NCBI RefSeq assembly: GCF_011320225.1
Contig: NZ_JAAOEN010000013.1
Span: 1-64,000 of the forward strand
DNA: 64,000 bases
Direction of reading: 5' to 3'
Origin: Phytoactinopolyspora limicola
Lineage (GTDB): Bacteria > Actinomycetota > Actinomycetes > Jiangellales > Jiangellaceae
The position numbers and the translations under genes were made by a program. Shown here piece by piece: positions 14,522 to 33,585 of this stretch. The notes under the pieces are model-generated. The model ran no database searches. It was not told the DNA's origin and saw only the letters and a list, made by a program, of their open reading frames with translations. Within the stretch, counting starts at the first letter, position 1. Each line of letters begins with the position of its first letter.

Positions 14522-15903
14522 AGTGCTTCCCCCACCTTTACGAAAAGCGGCCCGTCATCGCCAGGTCGTAACGTAAACGAGCCGTGCTCTGTGGAACCGT
14601 CTGGCAGGCGAACCTCAATCTCGTAGGTGCCGAAGAATCCACGAAACCGCGCCTGGCCGCCTCGAATCTCCGCCGTGACATCCGTGGACCACCTCTGCAA
14701 AATCAGGTCCGTCAACACGTCGTACGCTGGCTTTGGAGAAAGATCCCGACGCACCAGACCGCCGACATCGCAGAAACTGTGGCGATCAGTAAGATCCCAC
14801 CAGATCATCGCGTCCATCTCCGGTCGAGAGAACATATACGTATAAAGCGACTCCACATCGCATGCCTGTCGTTCCTCGGCAGCAGATTGATCGGGACCGT
14901 CGGTCTTGAAAGTGATCTCAGTCAGGTGGATGGGCAAGCCGAACTCCCCGAGGGCATCCAGCCCCTCGGCAATGTTGTGCACCAACTCAGCATTCAGCCG
15001 GCCGAAATGTCCCTGAACACCGAGCACATCGATTTCTGTCCCCAGCTCAAGTGCTCGCTGTAGCAATTCGATCGAGTGGCGCCTGTGCTCCGGACTGAAC
15101 GCCTCCCTCGGGCAGAGATTCAGAGTCAACCGACCTCGGGGGTTTGCCGCACGCGCGGACGCGAACGCCCGCCTCACCGCTTCCAGCGGAGTCCCAGGCG
15201 GCGTGCACCGCAGCGGCTCATTAATGCAGTCCCATAGGTCAACGACGTCACCGAACCGCCTCAAGAGCGTACTAATCCGCCGTTCCGACCACCGCCAGTA
15301 GGAATCGTGATCCATCTCTAACAACTCGCGGGGAACCATCCTCCGGTTCTGGAAGACCAATGGATGGCCCTTGACCGCCAGGCCACGCGCGCGCGCCCAA
15401 CCGATCATGGATGACACACGATGCAGTCGCATCGCGTTCAAGTCCGGCGAGATAGCGGACTCGTAAAACGGAACAACCGCAAGGTTAAATGGCCGTGCGA
15501 ACAACTCCGCATAGCGCAAATCATCCGAGTCACGCAGTCCGTCATACTCAGCCCCATGGAGCCGGACTCGCCTATTGATCGCCGCATCCGCGACCAATCG
15601 CTCTACTTCATCAAGTTGCGCATCGACGGACTCTTGGCCACCCACGCCCACCGTCGCCGCGACATCGGACCGGCCGACAGCGTCAGGCTGACGTAAGCGA
15701 GCCATCTTGCCCAGGCCAAAAGCGTTACCACCGAACGAAAACGCGTGCCCGGTCTGCACGAACCTTACTTGGCCATTATCTAATACACCCACCGGAGTAG
15801 CGACCTGAAGGACACACTCTCGAGTCCGGTTGGCTTGGATCCCCACGTCCATCGACTCGAAATCTGAGAAACTAACCGCATCTGTGGCTTCGGCAGCAGC
15901 CAT
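14518..15903 (-). CDS. Glycoside hydrolase family 10 (endo-xylanase-like)
   Basis: About 461 residues with no signal peptide. GH10 signatures: GLAVKGHPLVF (His180), DLWDCINEP with acid/base Glu229, VLGVQGHF, HLTEITF with nucleophile Glu329, and a late WWDLTDR block. The start is ATG 15903 with AAGGAGGAG 5 bases upstream. Residues about 66-128 form an Ala/Asp/Val-rich stretch that looks like an insertion before YAELFARPFNLAVVPFY. Lack of an export signal suggests action on imported short oligosaccharides, consistent with the ABC transporter. It is the first gene of a coupled unit with the dehydratase and SDR genes. Substrate inferred as xylan fragments or a related beta-glycan. Confidence 0.85.
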   Translation of the reverse strand: MAAAEATDAVSFSDFESMDVGIQANRTRECVLQVATPVGVLDNGQVRFVQTGHAFSFGGNAFGLGKMARLRQPDAVGRSDVAATVGVGGQESVDAQLDEVERLVADAAINRRVRLHGAEYDGLRDSDDLRYAELFARPFNLAVVPFYESAISPDLNAMRLHRVSSMIGWARARGLAVKGHPLVFQNRRMVPRELLEMDHDSYWRWSERRISTLLRRFGDVVDLWDCINEPLRCTPPGTPLEAVRRAFASARAANPRGRLTLNLCPREAFSPEHRRHSIELLQRALELGTEIDVLGVQGHFGRLNAELVHNIAEGLDALGEFGLPIHLTEITFKTDGPDQSAAEERQACDVESLYTYMFSRPEMDAMIWWDLTDRHSFCDVGGLVRRDLSPKPAYDVLTDLILQRWSTDVTAEIRGGQARFRGFFGTYEIEVRLPDGSTEHGSFTLRPGDDGPLFVKVGEAL

Positions 15904-18049: not shown

Positions 18050-18640
18050 ATCGCCGTCGGGGTCGCTGGACGGTCAAGTTCGGCGAGCTCTTTCTCGACG
18101 TCGGCGAGGCGTTCTTTGGCCTCGTTGAGTTCTGCGGCACGATCGAATAGGTGTTCCGAGAAGTGTGGCGATCTGCTCGGCGTGGGCGCGTTGTTCCCGC
18201 CAGGTTTTGGTTCGCTCGTAAAGGGCGGTTCTCGATCCGGTTGAGGTAGCCTTCGAGTCGTCTGCGCACCCGTAGCCGGGGTTCGCGCCGCCGATCTCGT
18301 CGGCCCGGACGGCACGTGGACGCATCAGGGATGCCGTCCACGCTGACGGTCACCTTCACGGAGCGACCTTTCGCTTCGATGCGGATGTCGAATCCGCCCA
18401 GTGCACCGATGTCGTCGGTGGTCGCGTCGGACCGTTGTGCGTGTTGGATATGGGCGATGACGTGGAACAAGGCGCGGCCGGCGTCCGGGCGGGTGGTGTA
18501 GGCGCGTCCCTTGATGGTCATCGCAAATTGGTCACCGTCGGTGGGTTGACGTCTAGTGAGCGCGGTCCGAAGTGCGGCGATGGCTGTGGCGGCGGATTCG
18601 ATGGCCGGTTGGGCTTGACGGGCGGCGAAACGGTTTCTCG
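18050..18640 (-). pseudogene. C-terminal remnant of a helicase/DNA-methylase-type mobile-element protein
   Basis: Family sequence appears in successive frames: AIAALRTALTRRQPTDGDQF then AMTIKGRAYTTRPDAGRALF, IGALGGFDIRIEAKG and VTVSVDGIPDAS (one frame), LYERTKTWREQRAHAEQIATL (second frame), FDRAAELNEAKERLADVEKE (third frame). This order matches the tail of very large SNF2-helicase/N-6-methylase proteins carried by actinobacterial plasmids and ICEs: a beta domain and then a coiled coil. At least two frameshifts break it and the N-terminal thousand-plus residues are absent. Family assignment rests on remembered pattern, not on a search. Confidence 0.6.
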
Positions 18641-18845: not shown

Positions 18846-18904
18846 GGGTGTTCACCCTTCGGGTTTGTCTGCCTGGCAGCCGACATCGAAAGGTGAACAC
18901 CCCC
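18846..18904 (-). repeat. Inverted repeat, possible terminator after the gajB chimera
   Basis: Arms GGGTGTTCACC and GGTGAACACCC separated by about 35 bases. It lies downstream of the stop at 19000 on the minus strand. No T-run follows, so it may be a terminator or an element end. Confidence 0.4.
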
Positions 18905-18999: not shown

Positions 19000-20895
19000 T
19001 CAAAGCGCAACACCACGATCGACCAAGTCAGTCGGGTCCGCCGGGTTCGTCGGCTCTGACGGCACATCGACCGTGCGTCTCACCTCGACGGAATCGAGGT
19101 AACTGACCCCCTGACCGACATCAGCGAACTCGACAGTGAGCTCCGTGTGCTCACCGCTGCTGAATGTCTCGGTGATCAGTACCCACCCGCCGTCGGCGCC
19201 CACGGTGTGCGGCCCGGTCAGGGGGGTTCCGTTGGCACCACGCACGACGTAGCTGATCGTGCCGCCGGGAGATCTCACCCAGAAACTCATCGTGTAGGCG
19301 GTATCGGACGCCGCCCTTACCGTCTGCGCCAGCGTCGTGCCGCTATCGGAGCCATCGACCTTTGTTGACGCAGAGCCGGTGAACTTGTCGTCCTTCGATA
19401 GCTCAAGAGCCTCCCCGACGACCCAATTCGTCGTGGCTTTTGCGTCGAATTCGCCGTTGTTCACCAAGTTCGGGTACAACGGGGCATCCGTCATGCGCTG
19501 AACGCTGAAGTCGTCGAACAGGTACGTTCCCTCGCCGTTGAAGCCGACGTAGAGCGTCAACGCGGTGCGGGTTCCAGCATTGAGGCGAACGGTGTACTCG
19601 GTCCACTCGCTGTTTGCCGGAATTGTCCGCTCACCGACGACCGCGCCATCGGCGAGGATGCGCACGAGCGAGCGATTCTCGGTCGACTTCGCCCAGAAGG
19701 TCACCCGGTAGTCGTGGTACGGCTCGACGGCGAACGACTGCGACGTGCCGCTATCGGCGCTGGCGAGTTCGGCCAGCGTGGGGTTCGTGACGACGCGATC
19801 GAGCGCTTCGATGGCGGGTTCGGCCCCTGCGCGCTTGTTGCTGGTCGTGAGGAGGTCGGATCCGATGCGACCGTCGGCGTATCGCTTGCCGAGTGGGCTG
19901 GGGTCAAGTATGCCGTGCCCGCAGTGGCACTTCTTCGTGAAGCTGAACAGCCAGGACGCGTAGCGTGCGAGGTCGGCGGTGACGAGCTTTGCGAGCCAGT
20001 CGGCCATGAACTTGCCAGCGATCTCCTCCATGACGGTGTAGTTGCCTTTCAGGGCACCGGCGATGTCGCGGGCGATGTGCGCCTGAGCGGCAATGATGAG
20101 GATAGTCTCGGCGGTGGGAAGCGAGAGAGCCCGGAGGGCCGCAGTGGTGACGCCGTTGGGAGCGCCGGAGACGTTGGTGAAGGTGACGCCGGTCGGGTAG
20201 TTGGGGCTGTTGAGATGCAGCTCGTGGTCGGGCTCGAGGCCATCGCGGACCTTGAGCAGCCACTCGCCGAGGACTTCGTTGTGCCCGACCCAGCGGCGGG
20301 GCTTGACTTCGATGGCGCCGTGCTCGGGGAAGTCGGTGAGGACGTCGGCCCAGGCGGGGAGTGGGTCGGTGAACCCAAAGATGGCCTGGAGGGGGTCGCC
20401 GAGGATGCCGATGTTGGGGATGGCGTCCTTGATCTTGAGGACCAGGGAGTGATGGTACTCGTTGCAATCCTGATACTCGTCGACGAGGACGTGGGTGTAG
20501 GAGGCGGCGAGGATGGCCTTGATGTGCGCTGCGGCTGTGACCTTCGCGGCGGCCTGGATGTACTTTTGGGAGTCCTCGGGGACCATGACCTTCGGGACGA
20601 ACATGTTGCCGAGGACGGGGTAGGCGCGGGCGAGGCGGAACGCGAAACTGGTGATGGTGGAGACGTGGACGCCCTTGGTGACGCCGAACCGCTTCAGGCG
20701 GGCGCTGATGGCGTAGACACCGGCGTTGGTGTGGGTGAGAACGAGGACCGTCCGGCCGTCGGTGACGATGTGCTTCGCGGTGGCCGCGAGCAGGTGGGTC
20801 TTGCCTGCCCCTGCGGGCATGACGACTGATGCCGGGAGCGCGGATACGAACCCGGCGGCGTCGGCCTTGAGCTCGTCGGACAGGTGCTCAGGCAT
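19000..20895 (-). CDS. gajB: Gabija GajB-like UvrD helicase with C-terminus replaced by a carbohydrate-binding tail
   Basis: ATG 20895 overlaps the gajA stop by 8 bases (ATGCCTGA), with GGAAGG upstream. Residues 1 to about 375 are a UvrD/Rep-type helicase of GajB type: PAGAGKT (27-33), VLVLTHTNAGVYAISARL, LVDEYQD (Walker B, 138-144) and GDPLQAIFGF (166-175). Around residue 378 (near 19760) the sequence changes without a stop to beta-rich modules like secreted CBM4_9 domains (FAVEPYHDYRVTFWAKS, YVGFNGEGTYLFDDFSV, then LAQTVRAASDTAYTMSFWVRS). Helicase motifs V and VI are not seen; the reference GajB is about 490 residues. A deletion probably fused two genes in frame. The product is likely a defective helicase, but it stays open over 631 codons. 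Confidence 0.8.
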   Translation of the reverse strand: MPEHLSDELKADAAGFVSALPASVVMPAGAGKTHLLAATAKHIVTDGRTVLVLTHTNAGVYAISARLKRFGVTKGVHVSTITSFAFRLARAYPVLGNMFVPKVMVPEDSQKYIQAAAKVTAAAHIKAILAASYTHVLVDEYQDCNEYHHSLVLKIKDAIPNIGILGDPLQAIFGFTDPLPAWADVLTDFPEHGAIEVKPRRWVGHNEVLGEWLLKVRDGLEPDHELHLNSPNYPTGVTFTNVSGAPNGVTTAALRALSLPTAETILIIAAQAHIARDIAGALKGNYTVMEEIAGKFMADWLAKLVTADLARYASWLFSFTKKCHCGHGILDPSPLGKRYADGRIGSDLLTTSNKRAGAEPAIEALDRVVTNPTLAELASADSGTSQSFAVEPYHDYRVTFWAKSTENRSLVRILADGAVVGERTIPANSEWTEYTVRLNAGTRTALTLYVGFNGEGTYLFDDFSVQRMTDAPLYPNLVNNGEFDAKATTNWVVGEALELSKDDKFTGSASTKVDGSDSGTTLAQTVRAASDTAYTMSFWVRSPGGTISYVVRGANGTPLTGPHTVGADGGWVLITETFSSGEHTELTVEFADVGQGVSYLDSVEVRRTVDVPSEPTNPADPTDLVDRGVAL

Positions 20896-22783
20896 CCCCA
20901 GGACCTTCCCGAGGGTCGGCAGGCTGCCTTCCAGCCGAAGGTGCAATCGGAGGAGTGACCGGCTCGCCGTCGAGCGCAGATCCCTGAATGTCGCACGCGT
21001 CCGTGGTGTCGTCCGCAGGCTCTTCCGCGGCCGGCGATTCGGGGCGGGCGTAGATGGCGGCCTTGAGGTCGTCAATCTTGGTCTTCACGTCTCCGGTCTG
21101 GAGGGCGGCAGTGTCGAGGATGAACCGGCCGAGTCGACGGCCTTTGTCGACCCTCTTGAACCAGCCCTTCATCTTCGCGGTCATGCCGACCACTGTGCGG
21201 GCCTTGGCCAGGTCGACGCCGGCCGCGCCCCAGGTGGCGACATCGAGCGGGTCGGCGCCCTTCGCGGTGTGCGGCGCACCGTTCGCCCCCAAGTTGTCGG
21301 CGAAGGATTGCTTTGCAGCAGCCTCGTCGTCTGCGACCTCGAGGCCAGCCTGAATGAAGGCGTTGAGGCCGGCCTCATCCAGTTGAGCGCAGACTGCGGT
21401 CTCGATGCTATGGCCGCCGGTCCACTGGATGACTGTGCCGCCAAGCGCCTCGACTTCTCGGACCATGTCGTTTGCGGCCCGGTCGTCGCTGTCGATGAAC
21501 AGGACGACGTCGTAACCCACGCCACGGAACTGCTTGGCCTGCCCAGCGGACCCGGTGCCTCCGTTCCCTTCGATGGCCACAACGCCGAGAGCTGCACTGG
21601 GCACCAGCTGTGGATTGGTTCCGTGGTCCCAATCGTCGAGGTGCTCCAGGACCACGCCGTACTCGGTCTTGCCCTCGTTGATCACGACACACCTGGCCAG
21701 GAACGCCTCCGGGCACGACTTCAGCAGCGGTCGCAGACTCGCCGGGTGGTCCAGCGGCTTGAGCTCGGTTACGCCACCCGCCGACCGGACCATCACGAGC
21801 TCGTCCGGCTCGAGGTGAAGGAGTGCGGTCGGCGAGTGCGTGGTAACGAACACCTGTGAAAAGGTGCCTTCCTTTCGGAGGTGCCGGAGCAGGTGAACGA
21901 GACGGTGAGGCTCGAGCCCGTACTCGACCTCGTCGACCAGCAGGGCGGTGGTGCCCTCGTTCGCGAGCTGCTGGGTCGCAGCCCCGGTGAGGCGCCGGGT
22001 GCCAAGGCCGAAGTTGGTCAGCGGAACATCACCCTCGAAGAGCGCAAGGTTGCCCTGGGTGTTGGTCAGGGACACGTCGAGTCCGGGCTTGAGGTCGGAG
22101 AAATCGGTTGTCCCGATGGACTGCACCTGCTTCTGCACGTCCTTGGCGAGGGCCTTCAGCTCGTCGGTCACTGCCTCCGCAGCCGCGTCCCTCGCTGCCC
22201 GGCTGGCCTTGGTGAGCGTCGCTCGCGTATCTTCGCGGTTCGAGGTCAGCTTGCCCAGCGACGACGTCCGGGACCAGCGCAGGTGCGCATCAACCCGGTC
22301 GTCGATGCGGTACGCCGTCATCTGAGCGCGGTGACGCGCCCGGATCGGGTGCGGCTCCTCCTCGCCCATCCCGTTCACAGGTGGCCGGTACGACTGCCAC
22401 ACCGGCTCCAGGTCGCCCTCGACTAGGAACTCGACGACGACACACCGTTGGGAGTCATCGGTCGGGTCGTGCGACAACTCGCCTTTGTCGTCGATGCCGG
22501 CCAGGAATCCGCCGAACGCGTCCATCGCGATGAGCTCATCCGGTAAGTCGTCAATCGCGACCCGGATCCGGATCGGCTCGTCGACCCTGGCCCCGTGGAA
22601 GTCGGTGTCGAGCACGTTCAAACCGGCACGGTCGTGGAGCGCCCGCTCGATCGCGGAAAGCACGGTCGTCTTCGTGGAGTCCCCGGGGCCGATGAGCACA
22701 AAGAATCGTCGGTCAGCCGGAAGCCGCCACGAGGCTGACTTGATGCCTCGGAAGTTCTCGATATCGATGCGGCGGATTCTCAT
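20888..22783 (-). CDS. gajA: Gabija GajA-like OLD-family ATPase/TOPRIM endonuclease
   Basis: About 631 residues. The N-terminus MRIRRIDIENFRGIKSA is the usual first strand of OLD-type ABC ATPases, followed by a variant Walker A IGPGDSTKTT (31-40). ABC-side motifs include FGLGTRRL (signature-like), LLVDEVEYGLEPHRL (Walker B) and VFVTTHSPTAL (His switch). The C-terminal TOPRIM nuclease shows VVINEGKTE (Glu370) and FIDSDD (Asp431, Asp433). ATG 22783 has GAGGA 4 bases upstream. In Gabija systems GajA nicks phage DNA when nucleotide levels fall and works with GajB. The overlap with gajB supports the pair. This subunit looks intact. The 280 bases upstream hold the promoter; no operator was identified. 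Confidence 0.85.
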   Translation of the reverse strand: MRIRRIDIENFRGIKSASWRLPADRRFFVLIGPGDSTKTTVLSAIERALHDRAGLNVLDTDFHGARVDEPIRIRVAIDDLPDELIAMDAFGGFLAGIDDKGELSHDPTDDSQRCVVVEFLVEGDLEPVWQSYRPPVNGMGEEEPHPIRARHRAQMTAYRIDDRVDAHLRWSRTSSLGKLTSNREDTRATLTKASRAARDAAAEAVTDELKALAKDVQKQVQSIGTTDFSDLKPGLDVSLTNTQGNLALFEGDVPLTNFGLGTRRLTGAATQQLANEGTTALLVDEVEYGLEPHRLVHLLRHLRKEGTFSQVFVTTHSPTALLHLEPDELVMVRSAGGVTELKPLDHPASLRPLLKSCPEAFLARCVVINEGKTEYGVVLEHLDDWDHGTNPQLVPSAALGVVAIEGNGGTGSAGQAKQFRGVGYDVVLFIDSDDRAANDMVREVEALGGTVIQWTGGHSIETAVCAQLDEAGLNAFIQAGLEVADDEAAAKQSFADNLGANGAPHTAKGADPLDVATWGAAGVDLAKARTVVGMTAKMKGWFKRVDKGRRLGRFILDTAALQTGDVKTKIDDLKAAIYARPESPAAEEPADDTTDACDIQGSALDGEPVTPPIAPSAGRQPADPREGPGDA

Positions 22784-23061
22784 CGCGTCCTCGCTCGTCG
22801 TTGTTGGACTACGAGTGGACCACAGAGCGCGGACTATTCAGCGTGACATGTCGCGCGTGTGCCCGTTGGTGCAGTTGAGCGCAGGGTGCTTGGAGCGGTG
22901 CAGCGTGTGCGGGACAAGAAATGCTATCCGGGATCTCGGAATCGCGGTGCGTCATTCTGGGCTACTAGAGACTTCCGGTGGGGCCGGTGTCTGGCCAGAC
23001 TCGGTCCAGGTGCCCGGCGGGACGCTCTCTGATTCTCTCGAGAACGTCTGCTGCCAACATG

Positions 23062-23750
23062 TCACGGTGTGATGCCATAGTCGGCGAACCAGTTCTCTGG
23101 GTCGATTGCGGCACCTTGGGCGTCTCGGATTGTCAGGTGCAGGTGGGGTCCGGTGGAGAGCCCTTCGTTGCCGACGGTGCCGATCTGTTGTCCGGCGGTC
23201 ACGGTGTCACCGGCTGTGACAGCGGCAGAGGCCATGTGGCCATAGGCGCTGGAGAACCCGTTACCGTGGTCAAGCTCTACGAGGTGTGGCCCGGCCCATG
23301 GCTGGAACCCGACGAACGTTACCTCGCCGGCTGCGACCGCCATCACTGGTGTCCCGGCCGGTGCCGCGAAGTCGAGGCCGTCGTGCAGCTTCCATTCGCC
23401 GGTGATGGGGTGTTTCCGGTAACCGTAGCGGTCGGTGATCCGGTAGACGCCGTCCTCGATTGGCAACGACGCTTCGCATTCTGGGTCCTCCCCGGTGAGC
23501 TGGGCTACCCATGTGCGTGCGTGGTCCTCCCATACGGCGTAGCGGTGTGGGAAGGCGCTGCGTTGAACGGCCTGCGCCGCGTCGCCGATCGGCATGCGTT
23601 CCCAGCCGGGTATGTCGAGCAGTCCGGGTGGTTCGCTTGCCGCTCCCCGTGAGTTGGGCCCGGCTGAGCCGCCGAAGAATGCCGCCGCCGTATATCGGGG
23701 ATCGAGCAGCTGGGTTGGTGTGCCCCAGCCGGCTGAATGAGCGGTGCCGG
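23062..23750 (-). pseudogene. M23 peptidase (C-terminal part of a conjugation/phage-type lysin)
   Basis: The readable part begins about GWGTPTQLLDPRYTAAAFFG and continues IPGWERMPIGDAAQAVQRSA, which is the end of a lytic-transglycosylase/NlpC-style scaffold, then a complete M23 domain: HDGLDFAAPAGTPVMAV (HxxxD), SAYGHM and PHLHLTI (HxH). It ends at 23062. The N-terminal half with its membrane anchor is missing because the sequence joins directly to a truncated integrase near 23750. Such proteins open peptidoglycan for ICE or plasmid transfer. Internal ATG 23595 could give a shorter cytoplasmic product, so it is probably non-functional. Confidence 0.7.
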
Positions 23751-24269
23751 CCGCGCCGTGTGCGCACTCCGCAAGATCTCCGTCACAAGGTCATAGGCGT
23801 GCGCGTTCTGCACCCGGTGAGCAGGGTTCAGCCCGTAGTACCACGACTCGAACGTGTCATGGTCAGCCACTTCTGGCAGGCTCAGGTCACCGAGCACTGG
23901 GTTAACGAGCCGGTCCAGGAGATCCTGGTAATGCTCACGTGTTCGCGGCTTCAAGGGCAGTCCGCGTCGAGTGCGCTTGTTCGCCAGCCACATCTCGGCG
24001 TACGGGCGGAAGGTAGTCCCGCTGCTGACCTTGGGCGCCTTCACCGGAGCCTTCCACCGTCCAGCTTCGATCTCTTTTCGCACCCACGTCAGATGGTCCC
24101 CTGCCTTCTTCGCGGTAGAGAACGTCAACGGCCCATGATCGATGCCGTGGTTCTCCTCGGCGTAGGTGATACGAGCCGAATGCCACGCCCCGGAGAGCTT
24201 CCACCGAGCCTGATACCGCCCCGACGGGAGTTTGCGGACATTCCCGAAATCATTGCGCCGTTCCGACAT
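23750..24269 (-). pseudogene. Tyrosine integrase, N-terminal part only
   Basis: From ATG 24269 (MSERRNDFGNVRKLPSG, GGGAAAGGG upstream) the protein shows the arm-binding domain (RYQARWKLSG, FSTAKKAGDHLTWVRKEIEAG) and the SAM-like core-binding domain (TFRPYAEMWLANKRT, YQDLLDRLVNPVLGDLSL). After HAYDLVTEILRSA the match ends, and the frame runs through the reverse reading of M23-peptidase DNA. The catalytic domain with the Arg-His-Arg-Tyr set is gone. Integrases of this sort sit next to their attachment site, and a tRNA 3' end is found 190 bases away. A deletion from inside int to inside the transfer gene explains the join. Confidence 0.75.
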
Positions 24270-24456
24270 GAGGCGCACACCCTTTCCCGAACTCCCCGCA
24301 GCGGTGGCACAACCCAATCCGTGCCACCGTCGTGCCACTAAGAGAGTACATAGGAGGCAGCATCTGTCAACGCTAGTCACACGCCAGACTCGCCCACATT
24401 ACCTGGTCAAGATGCTATTGGCGAGGTAAACATCTTATCCAGAAAGATGCTACGAA

Positions 24457-24484
24457 CCTGGTTCGAGTCCAGGTGCGGGAGCAA
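24457..24484 (+). other. tRNA 3'-end fragment, probable attachment site
   Basis: CCTGG TTCGAGT CCAGG forms a perfect T-arm, followed by TGCGGGA as the 3' acceptor strand and G as discriminator. No matching 5' acceptor strand (TCCCGCA) or anticodon arm lies upstream, so this is not a full gene. tRNA 3' ends next to integrase genes are typical attL/attR sites. Confidence 0.6.
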
Positions 24485-24525: not shown

Positions 24526-24818
24526 TCGTCATATGTGGCTCTTCGGATCTCAGTGGGCTGCGGGGTCGTTGTTGATCATGTGCGAGTTGCACCCCCGGTA
24601 GGGGGAGTTCCCTGCACATGATCAAGGTCGCATCTCCTTGGTGCGCTGAACGCTCGCCGGAACCACGCATCTGGGCCCATCGAGCGAGGACTCACCGCAC
24701 CAAGCCGGCCGCTTCCCAACATGACAAACGTCCAACGACCCCACACACCCGCTGAAATCCGAAGAGCTGCTATTCGCAACGTCAGACCAGGACGCGCGTG
24801 CCGTGCAGTGCCGCCCGG

Positions 24819-31158: not shown

Positions 31159-33141
31159 TCAGCTGACTTCTTCTCTACGGCGGTTCCGTGTCAGAAGAGC
31201 GCCACCGGCGAGCAGGAGCATGGCAACCAGGGAGAGCGCTGCCACGTCACCACCTGTGTCCGGCAACTTCGGCTCATCCGGACCCGGCTTCTTGCCGTCG
31301 GCATCCGCGTCGGCATCCGCATCGGCGTCGGCATCCGCGTCAGCGTCAGCGTCGGCGTCGGCATCCGCGTCCACGTCAGCATCAACATCCGCATCCACGT
31401 CAGCATCAACATCCGCATCCACGTCAGCATCAACATCCGCATCCACGTCAGCATCAACATCCGCATCCACGTCAGCATCAACATCCGCATCCACGTCAGC
31501 ATCAACATCCGCATCCACGTCAGCATCAACATCCGCATCCACGTCAGCATCAACGTCTACGTCCTCGTCCTGCAGGATGTTGACGCCAACCTCGGACCAC
31601 GCGACCGTGAGCTCGGCGATGCTGTCGGCTGCCGGCAGCAGCTCCACCTTGAAGGCGGCAACCCCGAAGGGCCCGTCCGAGATGAGGCTCATGGGCTGGA
31701 AGTCGACCGCCGGGACACTACGCAGCAAGTCGGCCGACACGCTGTTCATCGGCTGGTCGGGCTGGTAGTTCAGCGTGATCAGAAGCAGTTCCGCGAGCAG
31801 TTCACCGATCGGCGTGAGCAGGTCGGTGAGGTCATCGACCAGGTCGGCCGCGGTCTCGCCAAGAGTGGTGATGAGGCCGCTACCGGTGTCGAGGACCAGA
31901 TTGCCGATTGCCGGCAACAACTCCTCAAGGGCGGTGACCGCCAGACCACACGCCGGTTCGGCGAGTAGGCCACTGCAGTTCTCCTCGATGACCGCGTCAC
32001 CCAAGACGTACTCAGCGACGGTGCCACTCGTGACGATGTCGATGACGTTGCCCAGGATGCTTGCGTTGAGCGAGATGTCGATCTGGACCGCTTCGAGCGC
32101 CTCCATGAGCACGTCGGCGAGGTCGGACACCCAGCCGTCGAAGAGGTTGCCAAGGTTGTCGGCCAGGCCGTCGATCACCGCGTTGCTCAGCAGCGGCGTG
32201 TTCGGCGGCTGCCCGTTCAAGCCACCCTCGAGCAGCTCGTTCAGGTCGATGGTCAAAGTGCCGGCGAGCAGGTCGAGTTCGACGCCGGTCCCTTCACCCA
32301 GAGGAGTACTCAGGAAATTATCGATGGCCTCTTGGAACGCGGTCTCGACCGACACACTCACGTCGACGGTCACGCCCGGCACGGCGTTGAGCAGGCCCAG
32401 TACGTCGCCGAGAAGGCCGGAGATGGCACCGTCGGAGCCCGCGAGCCCGTTGATGGCCTCGTCCAGCGGGCCAGCCAGATCACGGATCGCGTCCGCAAGC
32501 TCACCAACTGCTGGGATGGTCAGGATCAGCTTTCCGCCGGCGATCTCGTAGTCGCGGCTGAGCTCGAACTCACCCTCGGTGGTCTCGGGGGCGACAAGGT
32601 GCGCCTCGGACGAGATGGCACCGAGTTCAAGTTCGATGTCCGCGATGAGGTCGGTCAGCGCCTCACCGAGCAGGTCGGTCAGGTCGAAGTTGGCGTGCCC
32701 CGGGAAACCGGCGTCGACGCCGGTACCGACGCCGCCGTTGTCGGCTACCGCACCGGTGGCGGCGTGAGAGGTCGCCTTTGGCTCGGCCGCGGCCCATTGG
32801 TTGACCGCGCCGAGCTCGATGACCTCGCTCAGCGGAAGCTGGAGGCCGTTCGGAAGAGTGACGTTGATGGATTCGAGGATCGTCACGTCGACGGGGTTCG
32901 CGTCGAAGACCGTCTCGTCGAGACCGTCATTGATCGCTTCGACGCCGGCCAGCTCAACAAAGGTGTCGAGGTCGACGTCGAGGATCTCACCCGAAAGGAA
33001 CCGCGCGGCACCGCGCGAGAAATCCCCTTCTTGGGCGACCGCTGGCGCCAGTGTGGTGCCAACGGCAAAAACGGGGGCGATGGCGCCGGCGACCAGTGTC
33101 CTGGTCAGCCGCTGCCTTCGCCGCGCCTTTACTACTGCCAT
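31159..33141 (-). CDS. Choice-of-anchor G surface protein with Asp-rich stalk and LPDTG anchor
   Basis: About 660 residues. A Sec signal (RRRQRLTRTLVAGAIAPVFA to AVAQ) precedes a conserved body ([41 protein letters not shown]) shared with the paralogue at 34341-36167 and typical of choice-of-anchor G proteins. Residues after about 525 are a stalk of Asp-Val-Asp-Ala units, then Asp-Ala units. The C-terminus is a complete sortase signal: KLPDTGG, a hydrophobic span (VAALSLVAMLLLAGGALL), RNRRR. The protein should be covalently wall-linked with the acidic stalk spacing the body from the surface. No sortase gene is in the window. Stalk DNA is a near-perfect 24-base tandem array. Confidence 0.9.
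   Translation of the reverse strand: MAVVKARRRQRLTRTLVAGAIAPVFAVGTTLAPAVAQEGDFSRGAARFLSGEILDVDLDTFVELAGVEAINDGLDETVFDANPVDVTILESINVTLPNGLQLPLSEVIELGAVNQWAAAEPKATSHAATGAVADNGGVGTGVDAGFPGHANFDLTDLLGEALTDLIADIELELGAISSEAHLVAPETTEGEFELSRDYEIAGGKLILTIPAVGELADAIRDLAGPLDEAINGLAGSDGAISGLLGDVLGLLNAVPGVTVDVSVSVETAFQEAIDNFLSTPLGEGTGVELDLLAGTLTIDLNELLEGGLNGQPPNTPLLSNAVIDGLADNLGNLFDGWVSDLADVLMEALEAVQIDISLNASILGNVIDIVTSGTVAEYVLGDAVIEENCSGLLAEPACGLAVTALEELLPAIGNLVLDTGSGLITTLGETAADLVDDLTDLLTPIGELLAELLLITLNYQPDQPMNSVSADLLRSVPAVDFQPMSLISDGPFGVAAFKVELLPAADSIAELTVAWSEVGVNILQDEDVDVDADVDADVDADVDADVDADVDADVDADVDADVDADVDADVDADVDADVDADVDADVDADVDADADADADADADADADADADADADGKKPGPDEPKLPDTGGDVAALSLVAMLLLAGGALLTRNRRREEVS
31390..31557. 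repeat. Seven 24-bp tandem repeats encoding the Asp-Val-Asp-Ala stalk
   Basis: Unit CGCATCCACGTCAGCATC + AACATC repeats seven times from 31390, the last copy ending AACGTC. Near identity of copies suggests recent expansion and likely length variation among strains. It is coding, not a CRISPR. Confidence 0.85.
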
Positions 33142-33585
33142 GTGTTCTCCCCTAGGGTCTGCACATCTCTCCGCCGTGTGACGGGCGGAGAGTTTATTGA
33201 CGAAATCCGAGGCCCGACAGTACCGGCTTTCGACACCCCCACGGGCTGCAAACAGAGGATTTGACGCAGGGGCATGTACGCAGATAACACGGCTTCGCGA
33301 CTATTCGACTATTAAGGCCAGACAGGCCATTAAGTAACCAAATCCGGCATTGAAATGGGCACTAAAGTAGGGCATAGACGGATAAATTACCCCGGCGTGC
33401 CGCCTGGCCAACTATGACGCCGCCCAGCAACCGTTACCGATTCTTTATCGGCTACTTTTGCGTGCCGCACCCATGTCGACCGAGATCCAGAATCAAATGT
33501 CCGAATTCTCGGGATAAGATCCAAAAAAGATGATCATTACTTCTTCGATACTTGATCATGCTTGAGCTTGTCATGATCTTTCTCG
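33142..33585. other. AT-richer intergenic region, no gene seen
   Basis: About 440 bases, noticeably lower in GC than the rest, between the start of the LPXTG protein gene and the stop of the acyltransferase gene on the same strand. It should hold the promoter of the surface-protein gene. Two TGATCAT motifs occur around 33528-33559. I see no reliable hairpin or open frame. Confidence 0.5.

Follow-up and report, generated by a model that had tools for sequence, protein, structure and literature searches.

The gajAB operon described here is very probably the broken remainder of a Gabija operon on an integrative (and probably conjugative) element that entered the genome at a tRNA-Asn gene and then decayed by deletions, in the course of which gajB lost its end and was joined by chance to a carbohydrate-binding module (CBM) gene, with defence most likely lost. 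Gabija is a common two-gene anti-phage system in which GajA and GajB form a 4:4 complex. In the window, which comprises the first 64 kb of contig C5 of a 6.6-Mb draft genome in 40 contigs that is actinobacterial by its relatives, gajA is intact, gajB runs without interruption into CBM modules and parts of an integrative element lie in pieces on both sides of the pair.

The first gene of the operon, gajA (20888..22783, minus strand; ATG at 22783, stop at 20888), encodes a complete OLD-family ATPase/TOPRIM nuclease of 631 residues. The PADLOC GajA profile PDLC04168 is matched from end to end (residues 1-578 on profile positions 1-568 of 570, E 4.3e-163) and nine GajA sequences agree without exception on the TOPRIM residues Glu370, Asp431 and Asp433, so that the OLD-type ATPase and TOPRIM parts of a Gabija nuclease are both present, as the initial annotation had it. 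The variant Walker A motif that was also pointed out there does exist (GPGDSTKT), but it is shared by both Nocardioides relatives and is thus normal for this GajA subfamily. These relatives, from Nocardioides cremeus and Nocardioides sp. YIM 152315, carry the nearest Gabija systems, with a GajA that is likewise full-length and 66-67% identical. The structure model of GajA finds GajA structures as its best Foldseek matches; since this model and that of the fused GajB are of low confidence (mean pLDDT 61 and 59, respectively), we keep structural statements at the level of the fold.

The second gene overlaps gajA by eight bases, in agreement with the earlier coordinates, and forms a single unbroken frame of 631 codons from an ATG at 20895 to a stop at 19000 on the minus strand. 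Its 5' part (19763..20895, minus strand; residues 1-378), delimited by the PADLOC profile PDLC04173 and by identity to Nocardioides, encodes a UvrD-like GajB with helicase motifs I, Ia, II and III, so that gajA does have the neighbouring UvrD-like gene expected in Gabija. Residues 16-380 align with positions 6-361 of the 471 positions of PDLC04173 (E 6.7e-85), whereas the intact Nocardioides GajB covers positions 5-468. Identity to the latter is 60% up to residue 377/378 and then ends. Motifs V (KGLE) and VI (LYVA[LM][ST]R), already noted as absent, are indeed missing here and present in all ten GajB relatives that were read. Since the profile match stops at position 361, the product falls short of a full GajB, which has four subdomains and motifs I to VI: it lacks the last ~110-120 GajB codons. 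Compared with the Nocardioides operons, which belong to the same PDLC04168/PDLC04173 subfamily and show the same gene order with overlapping or abutting genes, the GajB described here thus differs in having CBM modules in place of the residues that carry motifs V and VI.

In GajB from B. cereus, subdomain 1A comprises residues 1-72 and 157-223, 1B residues 73-156, 2A residues 224-305 and 417-494, and 2B residues 306-416 (PMC10822852). Because a PDB sequence search at E <= 1e-5 returned neither a GajA nor a GajB chain, this map can be carried over only roughly. On such a rough mapping, the retained part holds 1A, 1B, the first half of 2A and most of 2B, and it is the second half of 2A that has been lost. 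In the model of the fused protein, residues ~11-170 are confident (block pLDDT about 76-94) and the tail is all-beta at low confidence, with Foldseek matches to UvrD/PcrA/Rep, to GajB and to CBM-type beta-sandwiches.

The point of fusion can be placed within a few bases, at 19758..19763 (minus strand): the Nocardioides gajAB locus (L028) is homologous at the DNA level over 19763-22795 and no further than 19763, and a repeat copy belonging to the CBM part ends at 19760. The initial annotation had considered a deletion the simplest explanation of the junction, which is well supported by the fact that the breakpoint lies in mid-domain in both GajB and the CBM partner, that the flanking genes are broken and that the GajB end is gone. 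This end is absent from the window and from the rest of the genome, where the best match is a generic frame of 739 residues at E 0.012, favouring a deletion over an inversion or insertion. A join of this kind would be in frame in about one of three cases by chance. It is conceivable that the contig fuses two unrelated loci at about 19760 through misassembly, as the genome is a draft in 40 contigs, but such a chimera is improbable given that the junction sequence is present once in the genome, that no repeat at the breakpoint invites misassembly, that no other contig holds the missing GajB end and that the flanking element parts are colinear with those of a congener. Elsewhere in the window, positions 31296-33226 belong to a multicopy repeat family with copies at the ends of contigs C16, C3, C8 and C28, and this family probably causes assembly breaks.

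Beyond the junction, the fused frame encodes a truncated jelly-roll module (residues about 381-470, of which 381-447 are recognizable as a partial CBM-like module), a complete CBM_4_9 module (476-586) and a Pro/Thr-rich end (19000..19760, minus strand; Pfam and Foldseek). On the whole fused protein, Pfam CBM_4_9 scores 41.9 bits (gathering cut-off 25.9; E 1.7e-10), with residues 476-586 as the best stretch. The initial claim that GajB turns into CBM-like modules without a stop is therefore sound and can be refined by the truncation of the first module. A 26-nt repeat lies at corresponding places in the two modules (19327-19352 and 19735-19760, 85%), and since the upstream copy begins at the junction, the first module lacks its start and both partners of the fusion are cut inside a coding module. 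A coding-like third-codon GC (~0.8 as far as about 19000) and a strong hairpin beyond the stop make the tail look like the authentic 3' end of a different gene. The hairpin, an inverted repeat with 28-nt arms that are 79% complementary (18846..18902; RNA fold z -3.6), starts 97 bases past the stop and is probably the terminator of the parent gene.

The tail resembles the tandem beta-sandwich CBM4/9-type modules of secreted glycan-active enzymes, but it comes without an enzyme, without a signal sequence and without the start of its first module. A search for the parent gene in the same genome (which encodes just one other CBM_4_9 protein), in 22 family, 395 class and 397 phylum genomes and in viral contigs yielded matches of at most 36% over part of the tail; two of these, when read whole, lie within proteins of ~1,220 residues from a congeneric family. 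Since this parent was not found, the deletion has no unfused sister strain as a comparison, a point that counts against reading the operon as broken. The tail also has weak PHROG matches (E 6e-6 and 2e-5), as would be expected of a protein with this fold, and we do not prefer an origin in a phage tail fibre. Foldseek also matches the C-terminal domains of Vip3-type toxins; as these are beta-sandwiches resembling CBMs, we infer no toxin.

The genes beside the pair are broken as well. On one side, a DarB-like helicase/methylase gene from an integrative conjugative element is left as a frameshifted C-terminal piece (18072..18629, minus strand). This piece shows 76% DNA identity to a congener (G019:C64), where the open frame has at least 1877 residues, and a weak match to the DarB-like family phrog_10089 (E 0.02). 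On the other side, the same element is represented by an M23 peptidase gene that has been truncated (23062..23736, minus strand; Peptidase_M23, E 1.5e-30). It is 77% identical to the same congener contig at the DNA level, the match ending at 23736. The congener has both pieces in matching order and orientation, 23 kb apart; its colinear element includes large open reading frames that are putatively VirB4- and TraG-like, as read from their sequence and not from a profile search. In the window, the M23 and DarB-like stumps were the only such pieces identified. Next to the M23 stump follows a truncated tyrosine integrase of about 200 residues (23740..24380, minus strand; weak matches to Phage_int_SAM_3, E 0.0024, and phrog_1, E 1.3e-4), the frames of relatives measuring 458-483 residues. 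From residue 219 or so the integrase frame reads the M23 stump in the wrong frame, so that 23505-24380 holds a further deletion junction, near 23737. The truncated integrase adjoins an att scar, an exact copy of the tRNA-Asn(GUU) 3' end (24457..24482, plus strand) that is identical at 26 of 26 positions to tRNA-Asn genes in the same genome and in three of four congeners. An integrase and a tRNA-derived att site, as expected of an integrative conjugative element, are therefore both found, the former truncated and the latter as a 26-bp copy. The intact tRNA-Asn gene resides on another contig than gajAB (C19, 3' end at 18109), and the synteny with two congeners stops there at its 3' end, as expected for an island at this site. 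Since the integrase, M23 and DarB-like genes beside the pair are all broken, the state of gajB fits the same pattern. Side observations in this region include a GH10 gene (14702-15593) with a 67-69% paralogue on C19 (12760-13646), on the 3' side of tRNA-Asn where congeners have no synteny, and a dispersed short repeat (24560-24767) with many copies in the genome at about 77-91% identity.

From these remains we infer the following course of events. An integrative, probably conjugative, element with a Gabija operon would have entered at tRNA-Asn and then decayed by internal deletions, one of which would have taken the last ~110-120 gajB codons along with the 5' part of the neighbouring CBM4/9 gene, presumably for a secreted protein, leaving the two remainders joined in frame by chance. 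The predicted product is a cytosolic GajB with 1A and 1B intact, without the second half of the RecA-like domain 2A and with ~1.5 misplaced CBM modules. This protein may still dock on the GajA tetramer, given that GajA binding in B. cereus resides in the N-terminal region of GajB (1-223), with no binding by the C-terminal region (PMC10822852). Its composite ATPase site, however, should be unable to form, and since GajA and GajB are both required in vivo (PMC10781630), defence has most likely been lost. GajA may retain a nucleotide-regulated nicking activity. Perhaps GajA even works without a partner, or together with some other helicase supplied in trans, the fused gajB being a mere passenger: gajA is intact and GajA by itself cleaves DNA in vitro (PMC10781630). 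We regard this as very unlikely, however, since both genes were needed in vivo where tested.

The broken-operon reading has to accommodate that relaxed constraint is not seen in the N-terminal half of GajB, that gajA is intact and that the frame of 631 codons is open. In this half of GajB, only four of 54 conserved sites show unique departures (zero to six in relatives) at a crude relative rate of 10 versus 15; for GajA, the departures amount to three of 94 and the relative rate to 10 versus 7. In the absence of accelerated decay the event is probably recent, or else the N-terminal half is still under constraint; these features are consistent with a recent event, but also with retained function. 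It is conceivable that the CBM modules functionally replace the C-terminal helicase half of GajB and redirect target sensing or confer a new binding specificity, for example towards glycosylated phage DNA or a cell-wall sugar. The fusion is in frame and open and keeps the GajA-binding half, and helicase activity of GajB is reported to be absent in published work, so its helicase end might matter less than supposed (PMC10681800). However, we consider such a variant, which the initial annotation had ranked as its strongest candidate for a novel defence-system variant, highly unlikely: RecA domain 2A is halved, the first CBM module is truncated, the flanks consist of element fragments, the tail probably stems from a secreted protein and would sit in the cytosol, and none of the relatives read provides a second instance. 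If the fused protein did work, the half of GajB that docks on GajA would be all that is needed of it.

As one more Gabija locus, on its way to being lost along with the decay of a mobile element, the operon matters little as it stands. It does call for caution in profile-based defence annotation, as both Gabija models score strongly on a locus whose GajB is without its second catalytic half. Non-exhaustive scans for the same fusion, proposed with the initial annotation, did not recover it: the CBM tail is present in none of the ten GajB relatives that were read (among them Nocardioides at 60%, two actinobacterial MAGs, a Pseudonocardia plasmid, Devosia and Pseudomonas), none of 293 matching plasmid records covers 80% of the fusion, and viral contigs contain no GajB relatives. 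Among 84,980 species genomes, a pattern scan brought up eight loci in which the homology to GajB is substantial, and these are all intact; the 395 class genomes hold one more GajB relative, which is intact as well.
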